From Polaromonas sp. JS666 (lineage in GTDB: Bacteria > Pseudomonadota > Gammaproteobacteria > Burkholderiales > Burkholderiaceae_C), in the NCBI RefSeq assembly GCF_000013865.1, contig NC_007948.1, positions 4,517,001 through 4,581,000 of the forward strand: a DNA stretch of 64,000 nucleotides, read 5' to 3'. A program made the position numbers and the translations under genes. Of the stretch, positions 29,154 to 55,052 are shown piece after piece. Within the stretch, counting starts at the first letter, position 1; every line of letters starts with the position of its first letter. The notes beneath the pieces are model-generated. The model did no database searches, was not told the origin of the DNA, and saw only the letters and a list, made by a program, of their open reading frames with translations.

Positions 29154-29990
29154 CTACCGTGCGGGCGGCACTGTGCCGCGCTGCCCCGCGCGCATGGCCG
29201 CGCGTTCGAGTTCGCCGTTGCCGCGGACTTGCTCCGTAAAGGCCCGCAGGTAAGGCATGCCGGCGTCGCGGCCCTTGGGGATGGCCGGCGCGAGATGCTC
29301 CGTGCCCCAGCGGCCCTCCAGCACGCGCGCACCTGGCACCCGCTCCGCCAGCTCGAACAGAATGCCCTTGTTGGTCGCGTACGCATCGACCTCTTGGGCC
29401 TGAAGCGCCGCACGCGCGGCATCCAGCGTCGGGAAGCTACGCAGCCTGGCCTGCGTCAGGCGGGCGCCGAGCACCCGCTCGGAGGAGCTGCCCTGGCTGA
29501 CGCCGACTGTGACACCTGGCTGGTCCAGCCGCTCGACCGCCGTGACGCGCGACGTGGACGGCACCAGCACGCCGAGTTCGAGGTCCACGAGTGTCGGCGC
29601 GAAATCCACCATGCGCGCACGTTCAGCCGTGGCGTTGGTGATCGTGAAATCCGCATCGCCGCGCTGCAGCGCAGCCAAAGCCTCCGCCAGGCGCGGGTAG
29701 ACGGCGATTTGCACGGGCACGCCGAGCCTGACTGCCAGCGAGCGGCCGAGATCGACGCTGACACCCCGCATGCTCGCTGGCGGCGCCTGTTCGACCAGGG
29801 ACGTGGGACTGCCCGGATAAACCGCAACACGCAGCGTACCGGTGGGCGCAAGCGCTGCGCGCGCCGCCGCCGTGGGCTCGGTCGGCGCTGGCACTGCTGC
29901 GCAGCCGCTGAGGGACACTGCAACGGCGAGCACAGCTGCCAGCAGGCGCCGACGGGAGGGATCCTCGCGGCGCTTCGAGAAAGAAGGCAT
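29154..29990 (-). CDS. Amino-acid-type ABC substrate-binding lipoprotein (SBP_bac_3)
   Basis: 278 residues from ATG 29990 (GGAG upstream). A twin-arginine-like RRRLL region is followed by a hydrophobic stretch and a lipobox (VSLSGCAAV), so a lipoprotein. The family-3 fold shows in GTLRVAVYPGSPTSLVEQ, VSVDLGRSLAVRLGVPVQIA and ALQRGDADFTITNATAERAR. It would deliver an amino acid or other small anion, but no permease or ATPase gene is adjacent. It follows a Bug-type gene by 18 bases and may share its transcript. Confidence 0.82.
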   Translation of the reverse strand: MPSFSKRREDPSRRRLLAAVLAVAVSLSGCAAVPAPTEPTAAARAALAPTGTLRVAVYPGSPTSLVEQAPPASMRGVSVDLGRSLAVRLGVPVQIAVYPRLAEALAALQRGDADFTITNATAERARMVDFAPTLVDLELGVLVPSTSRVTAVERLDQPGVTVGVSQGSSSERVLGARLTQARLRSFPTLDAARAALQAQEVDAYATNKGILFELAERVPGARVLEGRWGTEHLAPAIPKGRDAGMPYLRAFTEQVRGNGELERAAMRAGQRGTVPPAR

Positions 29991-30008
29991 GGTGAAACTC
30001 CGCATCGC

Positions 30009-30977
30009 TCAGTCCGGCTTGATCTGCGCTTCGCGGATCAGCCTGGCGTAGCGCGCGCTTTCGTCCTGCAACAGCTTCGTGAACTGCGCCGGCGAACCGG
30101 GCAGCACTTCACCGCCCGCTGAAGAGAGCCGCTGGCGGACGTCATCGGAGGCGAGCGCCTTCTGGACTTCCGCATGCAGCCGCGTGGCAATCGGCTGTGG
30201 CAGGCCGGCGGGTGCGATGACGCCGTACCAGACCGAAGCTTCGAAGCCCGGAAAGCCGGATTCCGCCACCGTCGGCACCTCCGGGAAAATGCCAGCGCGT
30301 TGCGGCGTCATGACGGCCAGCACGCGCAGCTTGCCGCTGCGCACATGCGGCTGCACCTCCAGCGCGTTGACTGCGACGGCCTGCACATGGCCGCCCAGCA
30401 CGTCAGTAATCGCCTGCGAGCCGCCCTTGTAGGGCACGTGCGTGAACTTGATGCCCGCGACCCGCTCGAACAGTTCGATCGCCAGGTGCGGCGTCGAGCC
30501 GTTGCCGGGGGAGCCGTAACTGACCGGCGGATTGGCTTTGGCGGCCGCAATGAACTGCTGCAGGTTGCCGACCGGGGAAGTCGCTGCTACCGCCAGAACG
30601 ACGGGGACACGCCCCACCAAGGCGATCGGCGTGACGTCCCTGGACAAGTTGTAGGGCGCCGGTTGGTAGAGCGTGACATTGGCCGCCAATGCGTTGGCGG
30701 CAAGCATCAAGGTGTGGCCGTCGGCCGGGCCCTCGATCAGGGCACGCACGGCCACATTGGTGCCGGCGCCGGGGCGGTTCTCCACCATCACCGGCTGCCC
30801 GAGGCTTGGCTGCAGCTGCTGCGCGATGGAGCGTGCAATCAGGTCGACCGCGCCGCCGGCGGTGTAGCCAACGATCATGCGAAGCGGCCTGGAGGGAAAC
30901 GCGGGCTGGGCCGTCACGCCAGCAACCCCAAGGGGTCCGGCAAGAAGGGTCGCCAGGGCTTGTCGTCTATTCAACAT
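30009..30977 (-). CDS. Bug/TctC-family tripartite tricarboxylate binding protein
   Basis: 322 residues. The signal peptide (LATLLAGPLGVAGVTAQ) is followed by FPSRPLRMIVGYTAGGAVDL, the phosphate-loop-like start typical of Bug proteins. VENRPGAGTNVAVRAL and YGSPGNGSTPHLAIELF are conserved ligand-loop segments. Bug receptors bind carboxylates and often have no dedicated TctAB membrane partner nearby, as here. An upstream porin gene reads in the same direction, with an intrinsic terminator between them. Confidence 0.9.
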   Translation of the reverse strand: MLNRRQALATLLAGPLGVAGVTAQPAFPSRPLRMIVGYTAGGAVDLIARSIAQQLQPSLGQPVMVENRPGAGTNVAVRALIEGPADGHTLMLAANALAANVTLYQPAPYNLSRDVTPIALVGRVPVVLAVAATSPVGNLQQFIAAAKANPPVSYGSPGNGSTPHLAIELFERVAGIKFTHVPYKGGSQAITDVLGGHVQAVAVNALEVQPHVRSGKLRVLAVMTPQRAGIFPEVPTVAESGFPGFEASVWYGVIAPAGLPQPIATRLHAEVQKALASDDVRQRLSSAGGEVLPGSPAQFTKLLQDESARYARLIREAQIKPD

Positions 30978-30993
30978 GCAAGTGCCTTCTAAA

Positions 30994-31033
30994 GAAAAAA
31001 ATGAAGCCTGGTTGCTTGTGCAAGAGGCTTCAA
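30994..31033 (-). terminator. Intrinsic terminator of the porin gene
   Basis: TGAAGCCT (31002-31009) pairs perfectly with AGGCTTCA (31025-31032). An inner CTTG/CAAG pairing extends the stem. Read on the minus strand it is followed by seven Ts (complement of 30995-31001). It lies 25 bases past the porin stop. Confidence 0.82.
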
Positions 31034-31057
31034 AACTGGAGAGCCTGGGGAGTACAG

Positions 31058-32131
31058 TTAGAACGCGTGCGTAATGCCCAGACTGACGCCATTGGACGTC
31101 GACTTGTTACCCGCCCCCAGGTAATTGCCCTTCCAGCGCGTTGTATCCAGCTCCAGGTACACCTTGCTGCGTCGCGAGAGCTTGTACTCGACGAAGGCGA
31201 GCAAGCGCTTGAAGCCGTCGTCGGGCTGCGCAGTGCGGCGGCGATCCACCTTGTAGTACCCGGCCAGGAGATCGATGGCGGGTGCAATGGAATAGTTGAC
31301 GCCGCCGGCAACGATGCGGTTGGTAGCCTCGGCGGTCGCTGAGGTGAAGCCGCGGTTGTAACCCATGTTCGCCATGACGCGCAGCGACGGAAGTGCGAGC
31401 CAGCTGGCGCCCACGTTCGCGGCCGTCAACCGCCGGTCGTTGGCATCCTTGAAGCGGGTGTACGCCGTCGTGATCTTCAGCTCTTCCGTCAGGTAGTCGA
31501 CTCCCAGTCCTGAAGTGCTTTTCCTGGAGGACGACTGCGCCACTTCGCCAAAGCTGTGCATCGCGCGAGCCACCACGGGGCCGATCGGAACCGAGTACTT
31601 GATCGAGTTGTTCTGCCGGTTCGACGCAGTACTGGAGCCCGTGGTGCCGTACTCGACACCGAGCTGATGGCCCGTGAGACTGACGTTCTGAATGTTCGGG
31701 TTCAGACCCGCGAACCTGAGCCCGATCGGGTCGGCAACGCCAGCGGAGTCAGCGAGCAATGTGTTCTGACGACCCACTGTCGTCGTACCCCACGCTCCGG
31801 CGAGTCCGACGGTCGAGGCGCGGTCAAAGTAGGTGACCGCATTGGCCTGAGTGCCCGTATCGACGTTGATTCCAGATTCCAGATTGAACGTCGCGCGCAG
31901 CCCGCCGCCAAGATCCTCGGTTCCGCGAAGGCCCCAGCGGCTCGTGGGGCCCACGCCGCTCGCAACAACGGTGGTGTCAACCGGCGATCGCCCGTAGGTA
32001 CTCGTCAGGCCAGTCTGGGAGCGGACAGCCACATTGAGGATCCCGTACAGGGTCACCGAGGAAGCGGTTTGCGCCATGACTGGCATGGCAAGGGATACCG
32101 CTGCAGCGGCCAGAATTTGTCTCTTCGTCAT
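31058..32131 (-). CDS. Gram-negative porin (OmpC-like, porin_4)
   Basis: 357 residues from ATG 32131, preceded by GGAGAAGG. Signal peptide MTKRQILAAAAVSLAMPVMA, then QTASSVTLYGILNVAV, the classical first strand. SRWGLRGTEDLGGGLRATFN is the conserved porin segment. It ends in GVSLGITHAF, a C-terminal phenylalanine needed for barrel assembly. It probably forms the trimeric outer-membrane channel for the carboxylates handled by the neighbouring Bug proteins (inference). A long in-frame upstream extension has no signal peptide character and is excluded. Confidence 0.92.
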   Translation of the reverse strand: MTKRQILAAAAVSLAMPVMAQTASSVTLYGILNVAVRSQTGLTSTYGRSPVDTTVVASGVGPTSRWGLRGTEDLGGGLRATFNLESGINVDTGTQANAVTYFDRASTVGLAGAWGTTTVGRQNTLLADSAGVADPIGLRFAGLNPNIQNVSLTGHQLGVEYGTTGSSTASNRQNNSIKYSVPIGPVVARAMHSFGEVAQSSSRKSTSGLGVDYLTEELKITTAYTRFKDANDRRLTAANVGASWLALPSLRVMANMGYNRGFTSATAEATNRIVAGGVNYSIAPAIDLLAGYYKVDRRRTAQPDDGFKRLLAFVEYKLSRRSKVYLELDTTRWKGNYLGAGNKSTSNGVSLGITHAF

Positions 32132-32258
32132 CTTTCTTTTCCTTCTCCAAGTGGTTGTTGGGTTCTTCTGCAACGGTGATCGCTGCAGCCCGCCACACGC
32201 GGCACGGGCAGCTATGTCTGATGGGTTTGGTTGGCGCGGGTGTGCGTTGGGCGCAACA

Positions 32259-33284
32259 CTACTGGCGCGGCACGTTGGCACGCGCAATCACCGCCGACCA
32301 CCTCCGGATTTCGGAGGCGAGCAGGTCCGCCAACTGTTCCGGCGTTCCGCCTGCAGGCGTGACATTCAATTCGGCGAGTTGCTTTCGCAGATCCGGATTG
32401 GCAAGCGCCTTTCCCAGTTCGCGATTGAGCAAGGCAATGACCTGCGGCGGCGTGCGAGCGGGGGCGGCCAAAGCGTTCCAGGAAGCAACGTCGAATCCGC
32501 GAACGCCGCTTTCCGCCACCGTCGGGACCGCCGGCAACGCAAGCGCGCGCCTGGCGCCCATGACAGCCAGAGGCCGAACCGCTTTCGAAGCGATCTGCCC
32601 CATCATCGGCCCCAGGATTTCCACAGCCACGTCCACCTGCGCGCCACGCAAAGCGGTTAGAACGGCCGGTGAACCATTGAACGGGATGACCTGAACGTCG
32701 ACCCCGGCACTGGTCTTGAGCAGCTCGGCCGCCAGGTGTTGCGTACTGCCGATATTGATCGTCGCCACATTCAGCTTGCCAGGGTTGGCCTTCGCGTACG
32801 CGAGAAGCTCTTGCATTGAACTGAACCGCCCGTTGGCCGCTGTGAGGATCGCGAGGTCGAAATAGCCCAGAGTACTTACGGGCGCGAAGTCCTTTTGGGG
32901 ATCGAACGGCAGCGACTTGAACAAGCCTGCACTCACTGCCGTGCCGTTGCTCATGAGGAGCAGCGTGTGGCCGTCCGGTTCCGCCCTCGCCACCGTTTCA
33001 CCGGCAACGATGCCTCCGGCGCCCGGCTTGTTCTCGACAATGACGCTCTGGCGCAGGCCTTCTCCCAGTTTCTGGGCCACAGCGCGCGCCGTGAGGTCCG
33101 CGATTCCCCCCGCGCCGAACGGCACGACGATTCTGATCGGCTTGGACGGGAATGTCTGTGCTGCGCTCAGCCTGGGAAGCACCGCACCCAGAGCTCCGGC
33201 CGCAAGCAGGTGTCTCCTGTCAATCATGTGCGCGCTCGAATGTTCGCGCCCGATGTCGTACGGCGAGCTGTTCGCTAGCTTCAT
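32259..33284 (-). CDS. Bug/TctC-family tripartite tricarboxylate binding protein
   Basis: 341 residues from ATG 33284, which has a perfect AAAGGAGA site. The signal peptide then has an unusually long n-region before DRRHLLAAGALGAVLPRLSA. ATG 33227 would give a more normal export signal. The mature protein opens QTFPSKPIRIVVPFGAGGIA and carries VENKPGAGGIVAGETVARA and TINIGSTQHLAAELL. Ligand unknown, probably an aromatic or aliphatic carboxylate given the nearby ligIJK genes. No TctAB permease is present in the window. Confidence 0.9.
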   Translation of the reverse strand: MKLANSSPYDIGREHSSAHMIDRRHLLAAGALGAVLPRLSAAQTFPSKPIRIVVPFGAGGIADLTARAVAQKLGEGLRQSVIVENKPGAGGIVAGETVARAEPDGHTLLLMSNGTAVSAGLFKSLPFDPQKDFAPVSTLGYFDLAILTAANGRFSSMQELLAYAKANPGKLNVATINIGSTQHLAAELLKTSAGVDVQVIPFNGSPAVLTALRGAQVDVAVEILGPMMGQIASKAVRPLAVMGARRALALPAVPTVAESGVRGFDVASWNALAAPARTPPQVIALLNRELGKALANPDLRKQLAELNVTPAGGTPEQLADLLASEIRRWSAVIARANVPRQ

Positions 33285-44987: not shown

Positions 44988-45063
44988 TGGAGCGGGAAAA
45001 GAGTCTCGAACTCTCGACCTCAACCTTGGCAAGGTTGCGCTCTACCAACTGAGCTATTCCCGC
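44988..45063 (-). tRNA. tRNA-Gly (GCC)
   Basis: 76 nt. The 5' end is GCGGGAA and the 3' end TTCCCGC-T-CCA, pairing perfectly, with the CCA encoded. D-arm AGCTCAGTTGGTAGAGC, anticodon loop CTTGCCAAG with GCC, and T-loop GTTCGAGAC are all present. It reads on the minus strand, so its 3' end faces the integrase remnant on its left. That side is where elements using tRNA 3' ends insert. Confidence 0.96.
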
Positions 45064-45230
45064 GCATGACCGCTGCTGCGATCAAAGAAAAACCCATCTG
45101 CCGGGCAAACCATATTTTCGACATCATTCTAGCCATAAGTCCGCACAAATCAGGCGACTCACGTCGGTTACATGGCTAAAAAATGGACCAAAGACAGGCT
45201 TGAGAAGGTCCGGGCCTTAGCTGCATATGC

Positions 45231-45273
45231 ATAAGTTTGCACAATCGCGAGTTTTTGAACAATAAGTTTGCAC
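45231..45273 (+). repeat. Two 12-bp direct repeats
   Basis: ATAAGTTTGCAC at 45231-45242 and 45262-45273, 31 bases apart (three helical turns). Both are flanked by AT. This could be a binding site pair or the end of a lost mobile element. Confidence 0.5.
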
Positions 45274-45453
45274 TATCTCATGGGCAAAAAAAATACGCTC
45301 AAAGCCGCGAGAGGCAAGCGCAGCGCGAAGACTATCCAAGCAGCCCGCCCGTGCGGCCAGTGCTGAATTCGGCCCGTCCCCCAATGCGGCACTAAGTTTT
45401 TTCTCAGGTCACTCTTCGACTATGAAATTGATCTGGACAATTCAAAAAGAGCG

Positions 45454-45732
45454 GTGTCTACTGAAGTTAGCGCAATGGTGAGCGCAAAAATGCTGCAGAG
45501 CGAAAGACAAGGCAGCCCATCATCGTTTCGTTGGTATCTGGAAATCCCCAAAGGCGTTTCAGCAATGTTGCATCCGATAAAACCCAAAATCTATCTTGCT
45601 TCCCAAGAAGATAGCTTGCCTCATGTCGCTCCGACTTCTTCAGTCAAGCGCTCGGTGCTCGCCATGAGCATGCGCTTCACCTATCACGCCAATCCGCCCT
45701 CATTTGCGCAGAATGGTCCGGCGCGGAATTAG
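45454..45732 (+). CDS. Doubtful small open frame
   Basis: 92 codons from GTG 45454. It has no ribosome site, no signal peptide and no recognised domain. The content (SFRWYLEIPKGVSAMLHPIK) looks protein-like only in part. It may be a remnant. Listed because no other feature explains this stretch. Confidence 0.2.
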   Translation: MSTEVSAMVSAKMLQSERQGSPSSFRWYLEIPKGVSAMLHPIKPKIYLASQEDSLPHVAPTSSVKRSVLAMSMRFTYHANPPSFAQNGPARN

Positions 45733-45844
45733 ATCCAGCATCATGAATTCCCAGTCTGTCCAAACCTGCAAAGCCAGCTTCCTCTTTAAATCAGAGGGGT
45801 TCGGGCATATAGAGCTTGCGGATGACTAGTTAAGGCAAGTGGCT

Positions 45845-45873
45845 CGGACTCCTCCCCCATCAGCAGGAGTCCG
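45845..45873 (+). promoter_or_regulatory. Hairpin that buries the ribosome site of the AAA+ gene
   Basis: CGGACTCCT (45845-45853) pairs perfectly with AGGAGTCCG (45865-45873). The AGGAG of the 3' arm is the Shine-Dalgarno of the ATG at 45876, six bases away. The stem would block initiation until melted or remodelled, i.e. a candidate translational switch or thermosensor. Confidence 0.6.
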
Positions 45874-45875
45874 AA

Positions 45876-47195
45876 ATGAGTGACGATGACATGGATGAGA
45901 AGCCGTCAGGCTTCGAGAAGATACGAAGAACCGTTCGCGGTGAAAGCCTTGACAGCCAAAGTTGCAGCATTGAGATTTTTCTTCCCCAGCACCTGGTGGA
46001 TCATTTCAATGACGAGGCAAGAATGCTGGATGAGGCAAAACGTAAAGTAGCCAGGGAAGGCCGGGAAAGGCAGGCCTCCCGGTATGAAATGGCCGATCGC
46101 GCGAGCGAAGAGAAAGCGGCGGCCGCGCCGGCCTTGGCTGCGGCGCCGGTTCCGGCAAAAACCGCTCCCCCTGAATCGCTTGTGCCCGGCATCGATTTCG
46201 ACCCCCAGCTCAAACATCTGGTCTACGCCACAACGGAGCCCGAGGCGGTGGTTCTCCGGACCAAGCTGATGGCCGATGAGGAGATCAGGGTGCGAGACCT
46301 GGAGATCGTGGATCGACTGAAGGCCAAGGGGCCCTTGCGCAGGATCATCAATCCCTTCCAGTGCGATCCCAGCCTGGCGCCTTTCGACAGGCTGGCGGGC
46401 CGGCATCCCCATTTTGGGCCGGTGATTGATTTCGTCAAAATCCAGGTCGTCCGATGCCGGGCGAATGCAAAACCCCTGCGGATACCCCCTATCCTGCTGT
46501 TCGGCGGACCGGGGCTGGGCAAGTCACATTTCACACGCGACCTGGCGGCCGCCCTGGGCACCGTCTGCCGCCGCTGCGCCTGGGATGGCGCGGTCTCCAA
46601 TGCCACCCTACTGGGCTCGGACAGAAAGTGGTCGAACTCGGCCATAGGCGTTTTGTTCGATCTCCTGTGTCTGGGCGACTGCGCCAACCCGGTGGTGCTG
46701 CTCGATGAGCTGGACAAGGTGGGTCGGGACACCAAAGACGATCCCCTGGCGCCCTTACACAGCCTGCTGGAACCCAGCACGGCCACGCAGGTTCGCGATG
46801 CCTCCCTGGATTTCGTCTTCGACGCCAGTCTGGTGACCTGGATTGGCACCGCGAACAGCGTGATGCTCATCCCCTCCTCGCTGCGGTCGCGGTTTAGGGA
46901 GTTTCACATCGGCCACCCCACGGCCGAGCAGGCCCTCACACTGGCGTTCTCGGTGGCGGCTAACGCGATTGAGAAAACGGCATCCCCGGACTTTGCACCG
47001 CCCAAACGGGAGGTGGTACTGCGGATTGCCCACCTGACCCCCAGGGAAATCTACCAGGTCGTCGAGGAGGCGGTGGGAAGAGCCGCGCTCAATGTGCGTA
47101 CATGGCTCGAGGTGAATGATCTGCCTGCGGAGCTGATCCCGCTTGATGGGGACTCACGGCTGGAATGTGAAGGTGGCGTGAGGTATTTGCATTAA
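45876..47195 (+). CDS. Lon-like AAA+ ATPase without protease domain
   Basis: 439 residues, cytoplasmic. The N-terminal ~75 residues are charged and helical, followed by an Ala/Pro linker (AAAAPALAAAPVPAKTAPPE). The AAA+ core has Walker A LLFGGPGLGKSHFTRDL, Walker B VVLLDELDKVGRD, sensor 1 TWIGTANSVM and arginine finger SSLRSRFREFHI. The DELDK and sensor residues are Lon-like, but the Ser-Lys S16 peptidase domain is absent. It is not truncated: the stop is followed by a normally spaced next gene. The role is unknown; remodelling of a specific partner is likely. HAD gene downstream by 53 bases. Confidence 0.85.
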   Translation: MSDDDMDEKPSGFEKIRRTVRGESLDSQSCSIEIFLPQHLVDHFNDEARMLDEAKRKVAREGRERQASRYEMADRASEEKAAAAPALAAAPVPAKTAPPESLVPGIDFDPQLKHLVYATTEPEAVVLRTKLMADEEIRVRDLEIVDRLKAKGPLRRIINPFQCDPSLAPFDRLAGRHPHFGPVIDFVKIQVVRCRANAKPLRIPPILLFGGPGLGKSHFTRDLAAALGTVCRRCAWDGAVSNATLLGSDRKWSNSAIGVLFDLLCLGDCANPVVLLDELDKVGRDTKDDPLAPLHSLLEPSTATQVRDASLDFVFDASLVTWIGTANSVMLIPSSLRSRFREFHIGHPTAEQALTLAFSVAANAIEKTASPDFAPPKREVVLRIAHLTPREIYQVVEEAVGRAALNVRTWLEVNDLPAELIPLDGDSRLECEGGVRYLH

Positions 47196-47248
47196 CGGAC
47201 GGTCCGTTGTGTACTGCCCAGAACGTTCAGTCCAAGGAGCTTTTAGCA

Positions 47249-47854
47249 ATGGACCCAAGACCTCTTATTGCGCTTGACGGTGATGGGGTCCTGCTGGACT
47301 ACAACCTGGCCTACGCCAAGGCCTGGGAGAGAGCGACTGGCAGATATCCCGCAGAACTAGACATCCAGGCTTACTGGGCAATAGATCGATGGGATGTCGA
47401 AAGGCTTAGCGGAGAAAAGCTGGAGCAGTTCCGGGCTTGCTTCGATGTCGATTTCTGGAGCACGATTCCTCCACTGGCTTCTGCTGTCGAAGCCTGCCAT
47501 CGCTTACGCGATCAGGGTTACGACCTGGTCTGCGTGACGGCATTAGCAGAAGATCTTGCGGATGCTCGGCTCCGGAATTTACGCCAGCACGATTTCCCGA
47601 TTGAGAAGGTGTTTGCCACCGCACATTCCCTGGAAGGGCGCAGCCCGAAAGCCGACGTTCTGGAGCAGCTGAAGCCAGTTGCCTTTGTAGATGACTATCT
47701 CCCCTACATGGTGGGTGTGGATGGAAGCATTCACAAGGCGCTGGTTCTCCGGGAGCCCAAAGGTAGCCCGAACATCGGACAGCACTTGAGTGCTGTCGAT
47801 TCCACGCATGCCGACTTATCGGATTTCGTCCGGTGGTGGCTAAGCAGGCATTAA
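47249..47854 (+). CDS. HAD-family phosphatase-like hydrolase
   Basis: 201 residues from ATG 47249, chosen for AAGGAG 11 bases upstream. The HAD motif I is LIALDGDGVLLDYN, motif II is CVTALAE and motif IV is VAFVDDYLPYMVG. A helical cap lies between residues 20 and 85. Likely a small-molecule phosphatase; the substrate cannot be read. It follows the Lon-like ATPase in the same direction and probably shares its transcript. The pair is found between a tRNA-linked scar and a rearranged SIR2 gene, so acquisition with a mobile element is possible. Confidence 0.8.
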   Translation: MDPRPLIALDGDGVLLDYNLAYAKAWERATGRYPAELDIQAYWAIDRWDVERLSGEKLEQFRACFDVDFWSTIPPLASAVEACHRLRDQGYDLVCVTALAEDLADARLRNLRQHDFPIEKVFATAHSLEGRSPKADVLEQLKPVAFVDDYLPYMVGVDGSIHKALVLREPKGSPNIGQHLSAVDSTHADLSDFVRWWLSRH

Positions 47855-47886
47855 AACGGGCGTCTACGTAACTCGACGGGAAAACC

Positions 47887-48039
47887 TTATGACACTAGCC
47901 ATACATTCCGATTAACTAGACGCGCCCAGTGTTCGGCATCAATGTCGTCCCTAAACATCTCGCGCGGCGGCCCAATAAGAATGGCCGTTTCCAGCTCATC
48001 GAGCGACTCCCGAGCTAGCACTGGCGCTAGAGCAACGAC
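47887..48039 (-). pseudogene. SIR2-type gene, 3' piece (outside the inversion)
   Basis: 50 sense codons plus TAA on the minus strand: VVALAPVLARESLDELETAI, then LIGPPREMFRDDIDAEHWAR and LVNRNVWLVS. It has no start of its own. It joins in frame to the plus-strand piece ending ...REAMRL at 49607, giving REAMRL-VVALAP. This is the C-terminal end of the interrupted SIR2 gene. In the DUF4020-type families I recall, the chain continues beyond this point, so the gene may also be shortened at its end. Confidence 0.78.
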
Positions 48040-49607
48040 TAACGGAACGCTGGGCGGCGCGCTTCGTAAGTGAGTTGTTTCGCGGCTATACGGTTTGCTT
48101 TGTCGGTTACAGCATCAACGATCCGGTTCTGCGGTACATGATGGATGCGCTGGCGGCGGACCGGTTGCTGGGAGAGTCGCCACCGGAAATGTTCGCGTTT
48201 GGCAGCTATACGAACGGAAAAGAGGTAGATAGAGCCAACGAGTGGAATGCAAAGAACGTTACCCCGATTCTGTATCGGGAGCGAAAGGGACACGACCATT
48301 CCTATTTGCACAGCACGCTTCGCGCGTGGGCTGAGACGTATCGGGACGGGGTTCGCGGCAAAGAACGAATTGTTGTGGAATGTGCGATAGGGCGCCCCCT
48401 CGCGGCCACGAAACAAGATGACTTTGTCGGTCGCATGTTATGGGCGCTGAGCGATCCGCGTGGCTTGCCCGCCAAGCGATTTGCGGAACTGGACCCGGTT
48501 CCGTCACTTGACTGGCTAGAGCCGCTGAGTCAGGACTTCTATCGTCATGAGGACTTGGGACGTTTTGGCGTGCCGGCATTGGCTGACGCCGACAAAAAGC
48601 TCGAATTCAGTTTTACCCGACGCCCTGCACCTTACACAAAGGCGCCGTGGATGGTGCTATCTGATAGCGGGAACCGGACCAGCGAATGGGATGCGCCAAT
48701 GCATCATCTCGCGTGCTGGCTAGTGCGGCACCTGGACGATCCGAAGCTGCTATTGTGGCTCGTAAAACGCGGCGGCAGGTTGCACCACCAGTTGACATGG
48801 CTCGTAGAGCGGCGCCTCGATGAGTTGGCCAAACTTGAACGCACGGGTGATGCGAAGGCGCTTGCGCGTATTCGCGACAACTCTCCCAGAGCGATTCCGC
48901 GAGCCGCAATGCGCACGCTGTGGCGCCTGTTGCTGAATGGGCGGGTGAGAGCCGGGGCGCGCAACTTCGATCTCTACAGATGGAGGGAACAATTTAAACG
49001 GGATGGGCTGACCGCGAGCGTGCGATTGGCGTTAAAGGACGCCTTGGCGCCCTGTGTTGCGCTGCGCGAGCCGTTCCACTGGTCCGACGAGACGGTAGTG
49101 AGCGACGAAACAGATCGAGTCAAGGCTATTGTTGATTGGGAGCTAGAGCTGGCATCGGATCATGTGCATTCTGGAATGGGCGACATCCGTGAGGATCGGC
49201 GTTGGCTGGATGCTCTCCCTCATTTACTACTCGACTTCAACGTGCTTCTGCACGATGCACTTGATTTGATGCAGGAGTTGGGCGACGCGGATGGACGGGG
49301 GGATCATAGCTACGCTCACCAACCCTCTATATCCAAGCATCCGCAAAACAGGAACTTTCATGACTGGACTGCTCTGATCGAGTTGGCTCGTGATGCTTGG
49401 GTTGCGACTTCGTCTCGAGCACCTGAGCAGGCTCGAGCTGTTGCTGAGGCATGGGCGTACGGGCCTTATCCTGTTTTCCGCAGATTGTCATTTTTCACTG
49501 GTACGCACATCGATGTCATCCCACCGACGACAGCTTTGCGCTTCCTCCTCGATGGTGAGAACTGGTGGCTGTGGTCGGTGGAGACTCAGCGTGAAGCCAT
49601 GCGCTTA
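48040..49607 (+). pseudogene. SIR2-type gene, central 1568 bp in inverted orientation
   Basis: Plus-strand frame without its own start. It begins TERWAARFVSELFRGYTVCF, then VGYSINDPVLRYMMDALAAD, which is the second half of a SIR2 Rossmann fold. A long helical region resembling DUF4020-type tails follows (HHLACWLVRHLDDPKLLLWL). It ends ENWWLWSVETQREAMRL at 49607 and then runs into unrelated codons to a stop at 49634. The 5' and 3' pieces of the same gene flank it on the opposite strand. Confidence 0.8.
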
Positions 49608-50181
49608 AGTACGCTAAACCGAAGTCCCCGCTAGAAATCACCAAGCGGTCCAACTCTGCGGGCTTTGGCGCGGCTGATAACAGGCCATGCAGGTAGACCA
49701 AGCCGTCCCACCTTGCTTTGGGCACCGGAAGCAGTGGGGCTTGATAGGTTTGCAGCGAGAGCGACTGGGAGTCGATCAAGTGCTCAAAAAGACGGTCGAA
49801 GTTTGTTGTGATGAGCCGCGTCCGGCCACTCCGGTTCTGGCTCAACGTTAGCAACGCTTCATGCGTAGCGGTGGCGTTCGGCGCTGCAAAATCTGGCTTA
49901 AGTACTGAAGCCATTGCACGGCGCACCGTCTCTCGCCCGCCCATCACCCCGGCCTCTAACAGCCCAACAGCCGTGTCGAACTGCCCCACCTTTATCGCCG
50001 CCAACTGCACGGCATTTGGGATGACGGATAGCTCCCCATACAGCATGTCCACCAATCCACCGAAGTCTGGGAGCCGCGCCGGGTAAGAGATTCCAGCGCC
50101 ACAAAAAAATACTACTCGCCCATCCTCATGCAACTGCAGTAGGCGTTCAGGAATATCAGGCCCGTAGCGTACGAATTTCAT
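49608..50181 (-). pseudogene. SIR2-type gene, 5' piece (NADase half)
   Basis: 191 codons from ATG 50181. It has the SIR2 motifs GRVVFFCGAGISYPARLPDF (GAGxS), RLITTNFDRLFEHL (TTNxD) and LVYLHGLLS (catalytic His). It reads to SSGDFGLAYL, where the family continues with T-E-R-W, found instead at the start of the inverted piece. Past the breakpoint the frame runs 92 bases into reversed sequence and stops at 49516. SIR2 domains in bacterial defence (Thoeris, DSR, SIR2-HerA) hydrolyse NAD+. The reassembled gene is 2295 bp, exactly 765 codons. Confidence 0.85.
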
Positions 50182-50520
50182 TCACTGACCCCCTATTTGT
50201 TGTCTGTTGTTGACTCGCTGACTCAGTTCGCTTTCAGGGGCATTTAATCACGGGGGACGGCCTTGATGCCTGGCTACGGTGATCAAGCGTATGCGTGCCA
50301 GGCAGTTAGTTCTGCGGCCGATCAACATGGTTCGACGAGATGCGGGATTTTCAGCTAGCTATCGATAACTACATATTGTCGATAGTCAGCAAACCGAAAT
50401 ACGACTCAACCATCCATAGCTGAAGGCGGCCTAGGCGAGAGCTTCTCGCCTATTCACCACAACGCCCCATTACGATGAACCAAATCCTACGAACTGGCCC
50501 GATGCCGGCTTCGCAGCGGT
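50182..50520. other. Intergenic region upstream of the SIR2 gene
   Basis: About 340 bases, AT-richer than average, holding the inverted repeat at 50354-50390. No gene seen. Confidence 0.5.
50354..50390. repeat. 12-bp inverted repeat with 13-bp spacer
   Basis: GCTAGCTATCGA (50354-50365) and TCGATAGTCAGC (50379-50390) pair at 10 of 12 positions, with the inner seven perfect. It is about 175 bases upstream of the SIR2 start. The shape fits an operator or a tyrosine-recombinase core site. Confidence 0.5.
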
Positions 50521-51660
50521 CTATAAAGTATGCACAACCTCGTTCTTTGATGCATTTGCAGAAGACTTGACGCCAAGGCCCTTGTAGTAGTGTCCCACCT
50601 CGGTAGAGAGAAACTCTTCAAGAGGTGCCTGCTCCTGGCCGACGAAACCGGCAAGCGGAAGCTTGCCCTGCTGCAGCAACTCGAATACGCCGACCACGCC
50701 GGCAGCGGTCGTGAGTTCAATAGCCGTACGATCTTTGCCGCGCAAGGGAGCGCCAAACACGCGGCCAACACGCGTCTCCTGTTCGAACCTACCGTCCCGA
50801 AGGCCCGATGCGGAGGCAAACAGGATCACAACGTCTTCACGGCTGTGTGGAACTGCATGCTCAAGCACTTGACGCAGCAGGTCGCGACGCTCGATCAGGC
50901 GCAAATCGTGCAGAAGAAAATCCATCGCGTCGCGGTGGCCGGGATAACGAATAGTCTTGTAGTCGAGATTGCGAACCTTCCCCTTCAGGGTCTCGCACAG
51001 CGTGCCCAGGCCGCCCGATGTGTTGAAAGCTTCAAAGGCTTCTGCGTCGAGCGTAAAGGTTTCGTGCCCTTCCATTGGCTGAACCGATAAGAGTTGGCCG
51101 TTGACGATAGCATCACATGGGTTGCAGTATTCGTTAATAACGCCGTCGATGCTCCACGTGAAGTTGTACCGAAGGCTGTTCGTTGCGTTGCGGGTGAGTG
51201 CACCAACGCGAAGGCGCAGGTCGTACAGCTCGTCGAATCGACCCGCCAGATAGCCGCCAAGCATGCCAATTACGCCTGGTGCGAGCCCGCTCTGTGGCAT
51301 GAGCACAGAGGTAGCCGTCTTCGAAATGTCCCTGATCGCCTTCGTCGCGGCCACGTCCTCGGTGAGATCGAAATAGTGGACGCCGCATTTCGCAGCTTGG
51401 GTCGCAACGCGCGCAGCGAGGTAGAAAGGAAGAGCGTTAATGACAACCGAATGTGCGGAGAGCGCCACATTCAAATCTTCCGCGCTCTCCACGTTAAGAG
51501 ATACTCTGCGGACCAGCGCATCGCTCTCATCGCCGCGACCTGGTTTCAAATCCGCAAGGGTGACGGGCAAGCCATGGTACTCCGCGACCATGTCCGCCAC
51601 GGTGCTGCCGACCTTGCCAGCACCAAGAACTAGAACATTTTTGAACTTCAACTTCGTCAT
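50521..51660 (-). CDS. Saccharopine-dehydrogenase-family oxidoreductase
   Basis: 379 residues. Rossmann start VLVLGAGKVGSTVADMVAEY, then DALVRRVSLNVESAEDLNVA and VVINALPFYLAARVATQAAK. The C-terminal domain has CGVHYFDLTEDVAATKAI and MPQSGLAPGVIGMLGGYLAG. The fold oxidises or forms secondary amines of lysine or similar amino acids (saccharopine, lysine-6-dehydrogenase and related). Together with the opine-oxidase-type genes at 61-64 kb, an N-substituted lysine or arginine substrate is plausible (inference). ATG 51660 with GGAG upstream. It lies 860 bases from ornithine cyclodeaminase debris and is preceded by an Lrp regulator gene. Confidence 0.85.
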   Translation of the reverse strand: MTKLKFKNVLVLGAGKVGSTVADMVAEYHGLPVTLADLKPGRGDESDALVRRVSLNVESAEDLNVALSAHSVVINALPFYLAARVATQAAKCGVHYFDLTEDVAATKAIRDISKTATSVLMPQSGLAPGVIGMLGGYLAGRFDELYDLRLRVGALTRNATNSLRYNFTWSIDGVINEYCNPCDAIVNGQLLSVQPMEGHETFTLDAEAFEAFNTSGGLGTLCETLKGKVRNLDYKTIRYPGHRDAMDFLLHDLRLIERRDLLRQVLEHAVPHSREDVVILFASASGLRDGRFEQETRVGRVFGAPLRGKDRTAIELTTAAGVVGVFELLQQGKLPLAGFVGQEQAPLEEFLSTEVGHYYKGLGVKSSANASKNEVVHTL

Positions 51661-52674: not shown

Positions 52675-53796
52675 TCACCGCGCCATTTCGAGAGGTGTTC
52701 CGGTGATCGTATCTTGCGGAGTTTTGGCCACTGATTTGCTACCGCCTACAGCCAGCAAGCCAAAAAGGTCTTTCGGGTTGTCAAGGTGTGGGATCAGATC
52801 AATTTGCAGGCGGCCTTTGGCATCAGTTTGTAGTTTTTGCAGGTAGCAAAGGGCTGAGTAATCTTCAAGTGCGAAACCTACCGAGTCAAAAATCGTGACC
52901 TCGAGCGGCGTGGCGCGTGCAATTGCCGTGCCGTTCAACACATCTGCAAATTCGTTTACCTTGAAATCTTCGGACAGTTGCTGGATTTCGCCTTCAATAC
53001 GCGACTGAGGCTCGTATTCAACGATCACACGCGCATCGCTTCTGAGCAAAATGTCAGCGTGCAGCTCGGTCTTGCCAGGGCAGTCACCGCCAACGGCATT
53101 AATGTGCATACCGGGCTCAATCATTTCGGGCGTCAGGATGATGGCATTGCATTTGTCGGCGGTGACCGTGGTCACAATGTCGGCGCCTTTTACGGCCTCA
53201 AGCGCCGAGTTGCAGATCACTACCTTCAGGCCTTCCAGGCTCATGCCGGCAAGGTTACGGGCCAGCTTCTCGCTGGCCTTGACGTCAATGTCAAACAAAC
53301 GAACTTCGCGAATTCCGACCATACGGTGAAAACCAATCGCCTGGAACTCGCTTTGCGCCCCATTACCAATCAACGCCATCACGCGACTGTCGGGTCTGGC
53401 CATCCACTTGGCGGCCAACGCTGACATAGCGGCGGTGCGCAGTGCGGTGGTAATCGTCAGCTCTGACAGCAGCAACGGGTAGCCGGTATCCACGTCAGCG
53501 AGCACGCCAAAAGCTGTCACGGTCAGCAAGCCGACTTCGGTGTTTTTGGGGTGGCCGTTAACGTATTTGAAGGAATACATGCGCCCGTCGCTGGTCGGCA
53601 TTAGCTCGATCACACCGACGGGCGAATGAATTGCGTGACGCGCTGACTTGTCAAACTCTTTCCAGCGGCGGTAATCAGACTCGATCTCGTGTGCAAGGCC
53701 CTCGATGAAGGCAGCAGGGCCCGATCTGGCCACAATTTTCTGAATACTTTCAATACCAATGTAATCAACCACGATGGGCTCCTTTTTTTTTGCCAT
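52675..53796 (-). CDS. ocd: Ornithine cyclodeaminase
   Basis: 373 residues from ATG 53796; GTG 53772 (AGGAG eight bases upstream) may be the true start, giving MVDYIGIESIQKIV. The enzyme converts ornithine to proline and ammonia with bound NAD. Conserved parts: MYSFKYVNGHPKNTEVGLLT, MALIGNGAQSEFQAIGFHRM (NAD-binding G-x-G-x-Q), and HINAVGGDCPGKTELHADIL with the catalytic Asp of GGDCPGKTE. Length is normal. An IS30 element lies 24 bases upstream of the ATG and cuts it off from the transporter/oxidase operon. Downstream lies an arginase remnant. Confidence 0.92.
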   Translation of the reverse strand: MAKKKEPIVVDYIGIESIQKIVARSGPAAFIEGLAHEIESDYRRWKEFDKSARHAIHSPVGVIELMPTSDGRMYSFKYVNGHPKNTEVGLLTVTAFGVLADVDTGYPLLLSELTITTALRTAAMSALAAKWMARPDSRVMALIGNGAQSEFQAIGFHRMVGIREVRLFDIDVKASEKLARNLAGMSLEGLKVVICNSALEAVKGADIVTTVTADKCNAIILTPEMIEPGMHINAVGGDCPGKTELHADILLRSDARVIVEYEPQSRIEGEIQQLSEDFKVNEFADVLNGTAIARATPLEVTIFDSVGFALEDYSALCYLQKLQTDAKGRLQIDLIPHLDNPKDLFGLLAVGGSKSVAKTPQDTITGTPLEMAR

Positions 53797-53819
53797 GAAG
53801 GCGTGAAAGCCTGCTATAT

Positions 53820-55052
53820 GCCTTGGATTCAACCGGTCGATGCAACACATTAAATACTGCGTGAGCAGTAGGAGTGTTGCAGATGAAGTACAGAACAAGG
53901 ATTTACTATTCAGAGAGCCAGAAGGCTCTGATGTGGGAACGCTGGAAGAAGGGCGAATCCCTTCAACAGATTGCCCAGTTGTTTGATCGAAACCACTCAT
54001 CTGTCAGTCGCATCCTGGCTGAGACTGGTGGCATACGCCCGGCACAACGCTGTCGTTCCCAATTTGCTTTGAGCTTGGCCGAACGGGAAGAGATATCACG
54101 CGCATTGGTGGCGGGACAGTCGATCCGGTCAATTGCTTCCCAACTTGGGCGAGCTCCGTCAACCGTCAGCCGTGAGATCAAGCGCAACGGTGGCCAAGGC
54201 AGCTACCGTGCGACCCAGGCCGACCAGGCTGCATGGGATAGAGCACATCGTCCCAAACGCTGCAAGCTGGCTCAGAACCGAATCTTGGCGCGCGTCGTGG
54301 CAGGCAAGCTCCAACGTCAGTGGGCTCCCCAGCAAATTGCAGGATGGCTCAAGCATACTTACCCGTGCGACGAGGACTACCACGTGTCACACGAAACCAT
54401 CTACCGCAGTCTGTTCATTCAAGCCCGAGGCGCATTGAAGAAGGAACTACTGCAACATTTGAGACGCACCAGGGCCATGCGCCGTTCGCGCCACCACACC
54501 CAGAAGACAGACAACCACGGCAAGATCACCAACGCCGTGTCCATCAGCGAGCGTCCAGCCTCGGTGGAGGATCGGGCCGTACCAGGCCACTGGGAAGGCG
54601 ACTTGCTGTTTGGTAACCTTAACACCCAGATTGCGACACTGGTTGAGCGGCAGACGCGTTACGTGATGCTGGTGAAGGTTGCAAGTAAAGATACCCAGAC
54701 GGTCATCAATGCACTTATCAAAAACGCTCGCAAGTTGCCCCAGGAACTCTACAAGTCGTTGACTTGGGATCGGGGCAAAGAAATGGCTGACCACAAACGT
54801 TTCACATTGGCCACCGACATCAGCGTTTACTTCTGTGATCCCCAGAGTCCTTGGCAGCGTGGGAGCAATGAAAATACGAATGGACTATTGCGGCAGTATT
54901 TCCCCAAGGGAATCGATATCTCGAATTACTCACAGGCACAGTTAAATGCAATTGCGAGAAAACTGAACGAACGCCCAAGGAAAACTCTAAACTACGAAAC
55001 GCCCGCTGAACGATTCAGCCAACTTGTTGCATCGACCGGTTGAATCCAAGGC
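53820..55052. mobile_element. IS30-family insertion sequence
   Basis: About 1233 bp with terminal inverted repeats of 28 bp: the left end begins GCCTTGGATTCAACCGGTCG (53820-53847) and the right end is its complement (55025-55052). One transposase gene fills the element. IS30 elements normally duplicate 2-3 bases of target; the flanks (TAT left, CCA right) show no match. That suggests recombination or deletion next to the element after insertion, or that the two ends come from different copies. Confidence 0.9.
53883..55043 (+). CDS. IS30-family transposase
   Basis: 386 residues from ATG 53883 with AGGAG eight bases upstream. Two N-terminal helix-turn-helix regions (ESLQQIAQLFDRNHSSVSRI and SIRSIASQLGRAPSTVSREI) bind the terminal repeats. 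The DDE catalytic core is VPGHWEGDLLFG (D), LTWDRGKEMADH (D), and SPWQRGSNENTNGLLRQYFP (E). It appears complete and may be active. Read opposite to the genes it interrupts. Confidence 0.95.
   Translation: MKYRTRIYYSESQKALMWERWKKGESLQQIAQLFDRNHSSVSRILAETGGIRPAQRCRSQFALSLAEREEISRALVAGQSIRSIASQLGRAPSTVSREIKRNGGQGSYRATQADQAAWDRAHRPKRCKLAQNRILARVVAGKLQRQWAPQQIAGWLKHTYPCDEDYHVSHETIYRSLFIQARGALKKELLQHLRRTRAMRRSRHHTQKTDNHGKITNAVSISERPASVEDRAVPGHWEGDLLFGNLNTQIATLVERQTRYVMLVKVASKDTQTVINALIKNARKLPQELYKSLTWDRGKEMADHKRFTLATDISVYFCDPQSPWQRGSNENTNGLLRQYFPKGIDISNYSQAQLNAIARKLNERPRKTLNYETPAERFSQLVASTG

Follow-up and report, generated by a model that had tools for sequence, protein, structure and literature searches.

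A dsr1 anti-phage gene with an internal inversion and a missing 3' end in Polaromonas sp. JS666, very probably a recent pseudogene

Defence-associated sirtuins and inversion switches

Among the known families of phage defence is Dsr1 (anti-phage defence-associated sirtuin 1). In a passage of a review, DSR1 is described as blocking phage without cell death (PMC10952713). DSR2 of Bacillus subtilis, a SIR2 NADase activated by the tail tube protein of phage, has a similar build, with an N-terminal SIR2 domain and a long C-terminal region, but is a separate family, and its C-terminal region is said, in the excerpts drawn on here, to have limited homology to DSR1 (PMC10973363). According to the same excerpts, the SIR2 part of DSR2 has no activity by itself, and NAD+ cleavage by the full protein required the tail tube protein. 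Switching by DNA inversion is described for invertons, whose end repeats are given in part of one report as 10–40 nt (PMC11892184), and for PinQ, a phage-related inversion switch in E. coli, for which part of another report gives 16-bp repeats (PMC12529663).

The locus analysed here lies at 47887–50181 of a 64,000-nucleotide stretch of Polaromonas sp. JS666 DNA (contig NC_007948.1, positions 4,517,001 to 4,581,000), which we call the window. Like Dsr1 (NF041818), its pieces match family residues 1–762 in order; unlike Dsr1, the middle is inverted, the SIR2 domain is cut and the residues from about 763 are absent. DSR2 is intact, whereas the window gene is broken. The locus resembles invertons and serine-recombinase switches (PinQ/e14 P segment) in having an inverted segment, comparable in length to the 1797 bp of e14 (excerpts of PMC12529663), with ends within genes. 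It differs from them, as far as these excerpts describe them, in having no end repeats of 10–40 nt, no serine or tyrosine recombinase match (the two families covered) within 500 kb and no complete gene in either orientation. We consider it very probable that a copy of the known anti-phage gene dsr1 has here recently become a pseudogene, through loss of the 3' end and an inversion with ends of microhomology size.

Three pieces of one dsr1 gene

The arrangement of the locus, from its upstream side, is as follows.

50182..50240, minus strand: upstream stretch that keeps homology with the upstream region of the Polaromonas dsr1 (blastn of 49605–50240 against L013 8001–7370)
49609..50181, minus strand: Dsr1 piece 1, codons 1–191, N-terminal part of the SIR2 domain in its original orientation (NF041818 positions 1–192, E = 9.1e-96, 321.8 bits)
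48040..49607, plus strand: inverted 1568-bp segment (piece 2), with the remaining SIR2 domain and the middle of Dsr1; breakpoints by blastn against L013
49605..49607, no strand: right inversion end, TTA, from exact-end comparison
48040..48042, no strand: left inversion end, TAA, matching the right end over 3 bp in inverted orientation
47896..48039, minus strand: Dsr1 piece 3, codons 715 to about 762 in the original orientation, where Dsr1 homology ends
49516..50181, minus strand: present-day ORF of 221 aa, 192 Dsr1 residues and then 29 unrelated ones
48075..49634, plus strand: present-day ORF of 519 aa with a TTG start, 511 Dsr1 codons and then 8 unrelated ones

Taken apart, the three pieces fall one after another along a single family profile, Dsr1 of NCBIfam (NF041818, 1263 positions), and PADLOC gave the same family and the same piece order. 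Piece 2 (codons 193–714 at 48042–49607, plus strand) matches positions 194–714 (E = 4.9e-244, 813 bits) and piece 3, taken as 47890–48039 (minus strand), matches positions 716–762 (E = 2.1e-10, 39 bits). The curated cut-off of 1400 bits is not reached by any piece apart (321.8, 813 and 39 bits); a 1212-residue Dsr1 copy in another genome (G090) scores 1910.7 bits. The Pfam SIR2_2 domain is cut at the first join, with profile positions 2–64 on the minus and 70–141 on the plus strand, and is contiguous (positions 2–141) in both relatives scanned (L013 and L003). Thus the window locus has no contiguous SIR2 domain, and gene finders could report the two ORFs as separate proteins.

An intact orthologue of 1267 residues is present in Polaromonas sp. 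YR568 (L013 7425–11228). It is one relative from a scan of named genomes in which one of eight pattern matches was confirmed; the same-genus genomes listed were of 1.8–5.4 Mb and mostly multi-contig drafts. In blastn against this locus, 48040–49607 (L013 7999–9566) aligned on one strand and 49605–50240 and 47896–48051 on the other, with 80–87% DNA identity and the same breakpoints as by profile. At the codon level the pieces are L013 Dsr1 residues 1–191 (180/191 identical, 94%), 193–714 (473/522, 91%) and 715–761 (38/47, 81%). Because these codons follow on from one another, codon 192 being divided between pieces 1 and 2, neither inversion end has lost a base. The pieces are therefore one dsr1, in which codons 193–714 (and part of 192) have been inverted without loss or gain of bases. 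The original prediction had placed an inversion of 48040–49607 within a SIR2 defence gene, and profiles, blastn and codon alignment show it to be right to the base; the strands, the coordinates of the parts and the codons it read at the joins agree with the ORF list and with the exact-end comparison.

The loci compared contained 57 ORFs of at least 600 aa. Of these, 48 match Dsr1, and 33 distinct rows of the alignment (L013 included) span both joins, corresponding to about 31 genes, with G090 and G147 each present twice. Pieces 1 and 2 are separated by exactly one leucine in 31 of the 33 rows and by two residues (MG) in the other two, both from G147, while pieces 2 and 3 are directly adjacent in every row. 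The uninverted allele expected in relatives is thus found intact in Polaromonas sp. YR568, and the 32 other orthologue rows also continue across both joins without a break. That relatives might carry the parts as separate genes is ruled out by the same 33 continuous rows.

The missing 3' end and its neighbours

Flipping the segment back does give the continuous frame of 2295 bp (765 codons) that had been predicted, but this is not a whole gene. Downstream of piece 3, 28 of the 33 orthologue rows continue for 500–528 residues; the other five have 123–453 residues, ended by the end of the locus or contig or by a stop codon. The window dsr1 ends near residue 762 and profile positions from about 763 to 1263 are absent. 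A C-terminal Dsr1 query (G090 residues 701–1212, 512 residues) found only piece 3 in the genome of JS666 at E ≤ 10, and a search of this genome with the whole family at E ≤ 1e-10, which alone covers the last ~50 family positions there, found pieces 1 and 2 and no C-terminal piece. With the segment flipped back, the gene is still only ~60% of Dsr1, and ~500 residues are missing in either orientation. Judging from DSR2, whose C-terminal region has limited homology to DSR1, a Dsr1 lacking the last 500 residues would probably not function. A PDB sequence search with the intact orthologue gave no match at E ≤ 0.001, and we found no paper on an inverted or pseudogene defence-associated sirtuin in the open-licence literature.

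Three features adjoin the truncated end.

47864..47895, no strand: 32 bp of unassigned sequence at the 3' truncation join, source of the minus-frame stop codon
47207..47854, plus strand: HAD-type hydrolase gene, now abutting the truncated dsr1 (Pfam PF00702, E = 1.4e-4, 22.8 bits, below the cut-off of 26.4)
45876..47195, plus strand: AAA ATPase gene beside the HAD gene (Pfam PF00004, E = 7.4e-9)

The HAD gene is duplicated: window positions 47226–47863 are 93% identical in DNA to a second copy (G000:C1:4673361–4673995, L052 7362–7996). As 47863 is the last position with homology to this copy and 47896 the first with DNA homology to Dsr1, the truncation join lies within 47864–47895, and the minus-frame stop codon falls outside the Dsr1 DNA homology. 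The pattern of 47853–47887, across the join, occurs once in the genome. The frame of the second HAD copy ends early (179 aa); close to this copy are a TniB-like AAA gene and a gene whose rve match falls below the cut-off, a setting that suggests carriage by what we take to be a Tn7/Tn5053-type element. The AAA ATPase beside the window copy contains a Lon-like ATPase stretch, and its best relatives, in three same-genus genomes (G017, G055 and G050), are 42–45% identical. Upstream of it, at 45231–45277, is a pair of 16-nt direct repeats, ATAAGTTTGCAC(A/T)ATC, 31 bp apart from start to start, which may be a candidate binding site or due to chance.

Origin of the inversion and competing explanations

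The inversion ends share 3 bp inside the segment (TAA/TTA) and 0 bp outside, in line with the few shared bases of the original prediction. A match of at least 3 bp was seen in ~6% of 20,000 random site pairs with the same spacing, and the local similarity of the ±60 bp end flanks was reached by 1672 of 2000 random pairs. The match is thus microhomology at most, and may be chance. No inverted repeats of 10–40 nt were found at the ends among repeats of at least 12 nt and at least 16 nt and by comparison of the exact ends; one 24-nt inverted repeat (48937–48960/49921–49944, 88%) lies away from the breakpoints.

These data favour the one-off inactivation that was one of the two outcomes originally proposed, in a gene that is both inverted and lacks its 3' part. 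We suggest that the inversion was a one-time error, by end joining or template switching between the TAA/TTA sites, and that the 3' end of dsr1 may have been lost on joining of the HAD/AAA segment; both could possibly belong to one complex event. A base-perfect inversion is, as a counterpoint, tidy for end joining. No working NADase would be expected from the locus, since each of two convergent ORFs, one per strand, has only part of the SIR2 domain, and the part presumed to act in sensing is missing.

The age of the damage was approached by counting branch substitutions, with G090 as outgroup and without gapped codons or ambiguous sites (20 in piece 1, 68 in piece 2 and 10 in piece 3). Silent and replacing changes number 74/26 on the window branch versus 63/35 on the intact Polaromonas branch (Fisher p = 0.17), and the counts thus give no sign of relaxed selection on the window branch compared with the intact one. 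The dN/dS values against Polaromonas are 0.06, 0.09 and 0.16 for pieces 1–3, the third piece being short and the least conserved. The unrelaxed ratio suggests that the damage is recent and that selection was normal until recently. Rearrangement apart, all dsr1 pieces keep open frames; because of this and of the normal-looking selection, loss of function is argued from structure and is not seen as decay. As a pseudogene, the locus would be a clean recent example of the death of a defence gene, with a base-perfect internal inversion and 3' loss before point decay.

An assembly error, with the segment uninverted on the true chromosome, seems very unlikely. The locus has a single match in its own genome, and hence no repeat invites misassembly; the genome is in 3 contigs with completeness 100 and contamination 0.81, the joins are base-precise with 3 bp in common, and the truncation would stay regardless.

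We give less credence still to a reversible, phase-variable switch, in which a recombinase flips 48040–49607 and turns the defence gene on and off, as the original prediction had also considered. The inversion is lossless and recent and its frames are preserved, phage-related inversion switches such as PinQ exist, at least in the excerpts cited (PMC12529663), and the genome contains candidates for an invertase, with 2 partial serine-recombinase (PF00239) and 25 tyrosine-recombinase (PF00589) profile matches. However, none of these matches, in the two families searched, lies within 500 kb of the locus (the nearest is ~0.52 Mb away), the 3 bp shared by the ends compare with the 16 bp reported in part for PinQ (PMC12529663) and 10–40 nt for invertons (PMC11892184), the gene when flipped back still lacks ~500 residues, and opposite-strand Dsr1 pieces within one locus were seen in 0 of 41 other genomes (see below). 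The in-frame reassembly on flipping is real, but any clean inversion inside a gene rejoins in frame when reversed, and such rejoining should not be taken for a switch unless the ends carry repeats, a recombinase is present and the product is complete. The switch is therefore not supported, having nothing positive in its favour beyond the inversion itself.

It is less probable again that, by some unknown route that uses its 3-bp ends, the segment goes on flipping in living populations and toggles a naturally shortened Dsr1 of ~762 residues between whole and split; such flipping, if true, would make the locus a defence switch that lacks recognisable recombination sites. Equally hard to credit is a functional split form with the 221-aa and 519-aa ORFs as two cooperating proteins, for although both are open and their sequence looks selected, the cut lies within the SIR2 domain, both ORFs have unrelated tails, ~500 residues are missing and the arrangement is seen in none of the 41 other genomes that match Dsr1.

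An inversion mediated by an insertion sequence was also considered and rejected, as no transposase ORF was seen at either end (ORF list and eight ORFs scanned). The only transposase among the eight is at 53874–55043 (HTH_38 and rve), which is presumably IS30-like; it overlaps the start of an opposite-strand ORF (52675–54000) that looks to us like an ornithine cyclodeaminase.

Dsr1 in other genomes

Leaving the genome of JS666 itself aside, Dsr1 matches occur in 4 of 101 relatives (protein query), 10 of 369 genomes at class level, 14 of 399 at order level and 15 of 399 at family level, in total 41 distinct other genomes (G069 and G090 recur). In none of the 41 were pieces on opposite strands within one locus, among the pieces listed; this is a weak negative, because many of the genomes have fragments only and short pieces escaped the search (among them piece 3 of the gene in the window). 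Two genomes (G572 and G866) have two opposite-strand matches, 1.8 Mb apart or on different contigs, each spanning most of the profile. In the plasmid collection, 34 records match piece 2, and in 9 of these a single site covers at least 80% of the piece. No near DNA copy of 45000–50600 was seen on plasmids: in the 15 records listed, the matches were of 51–66 bases at the tRNA-Gly end.

Copies of dsr1 that are apparently broken in other ways, where assembly error is possible, occur in four genomes. The copy in G586 (C1:12266–17246; L084 and L091) has a stop and a gap of ~1.2 kb near profile position 1100, possibly an insertion, those in G1081 and G028 have overlapping frames and that in G430 has an internal stop. 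G147 has two dsr1-like genes on the same strand ~5 kb apart (C1:20503–24093 and 29247–32957); the first contains an internal TAG, and in the second MG replaces the leucine that is conserved at the first join.
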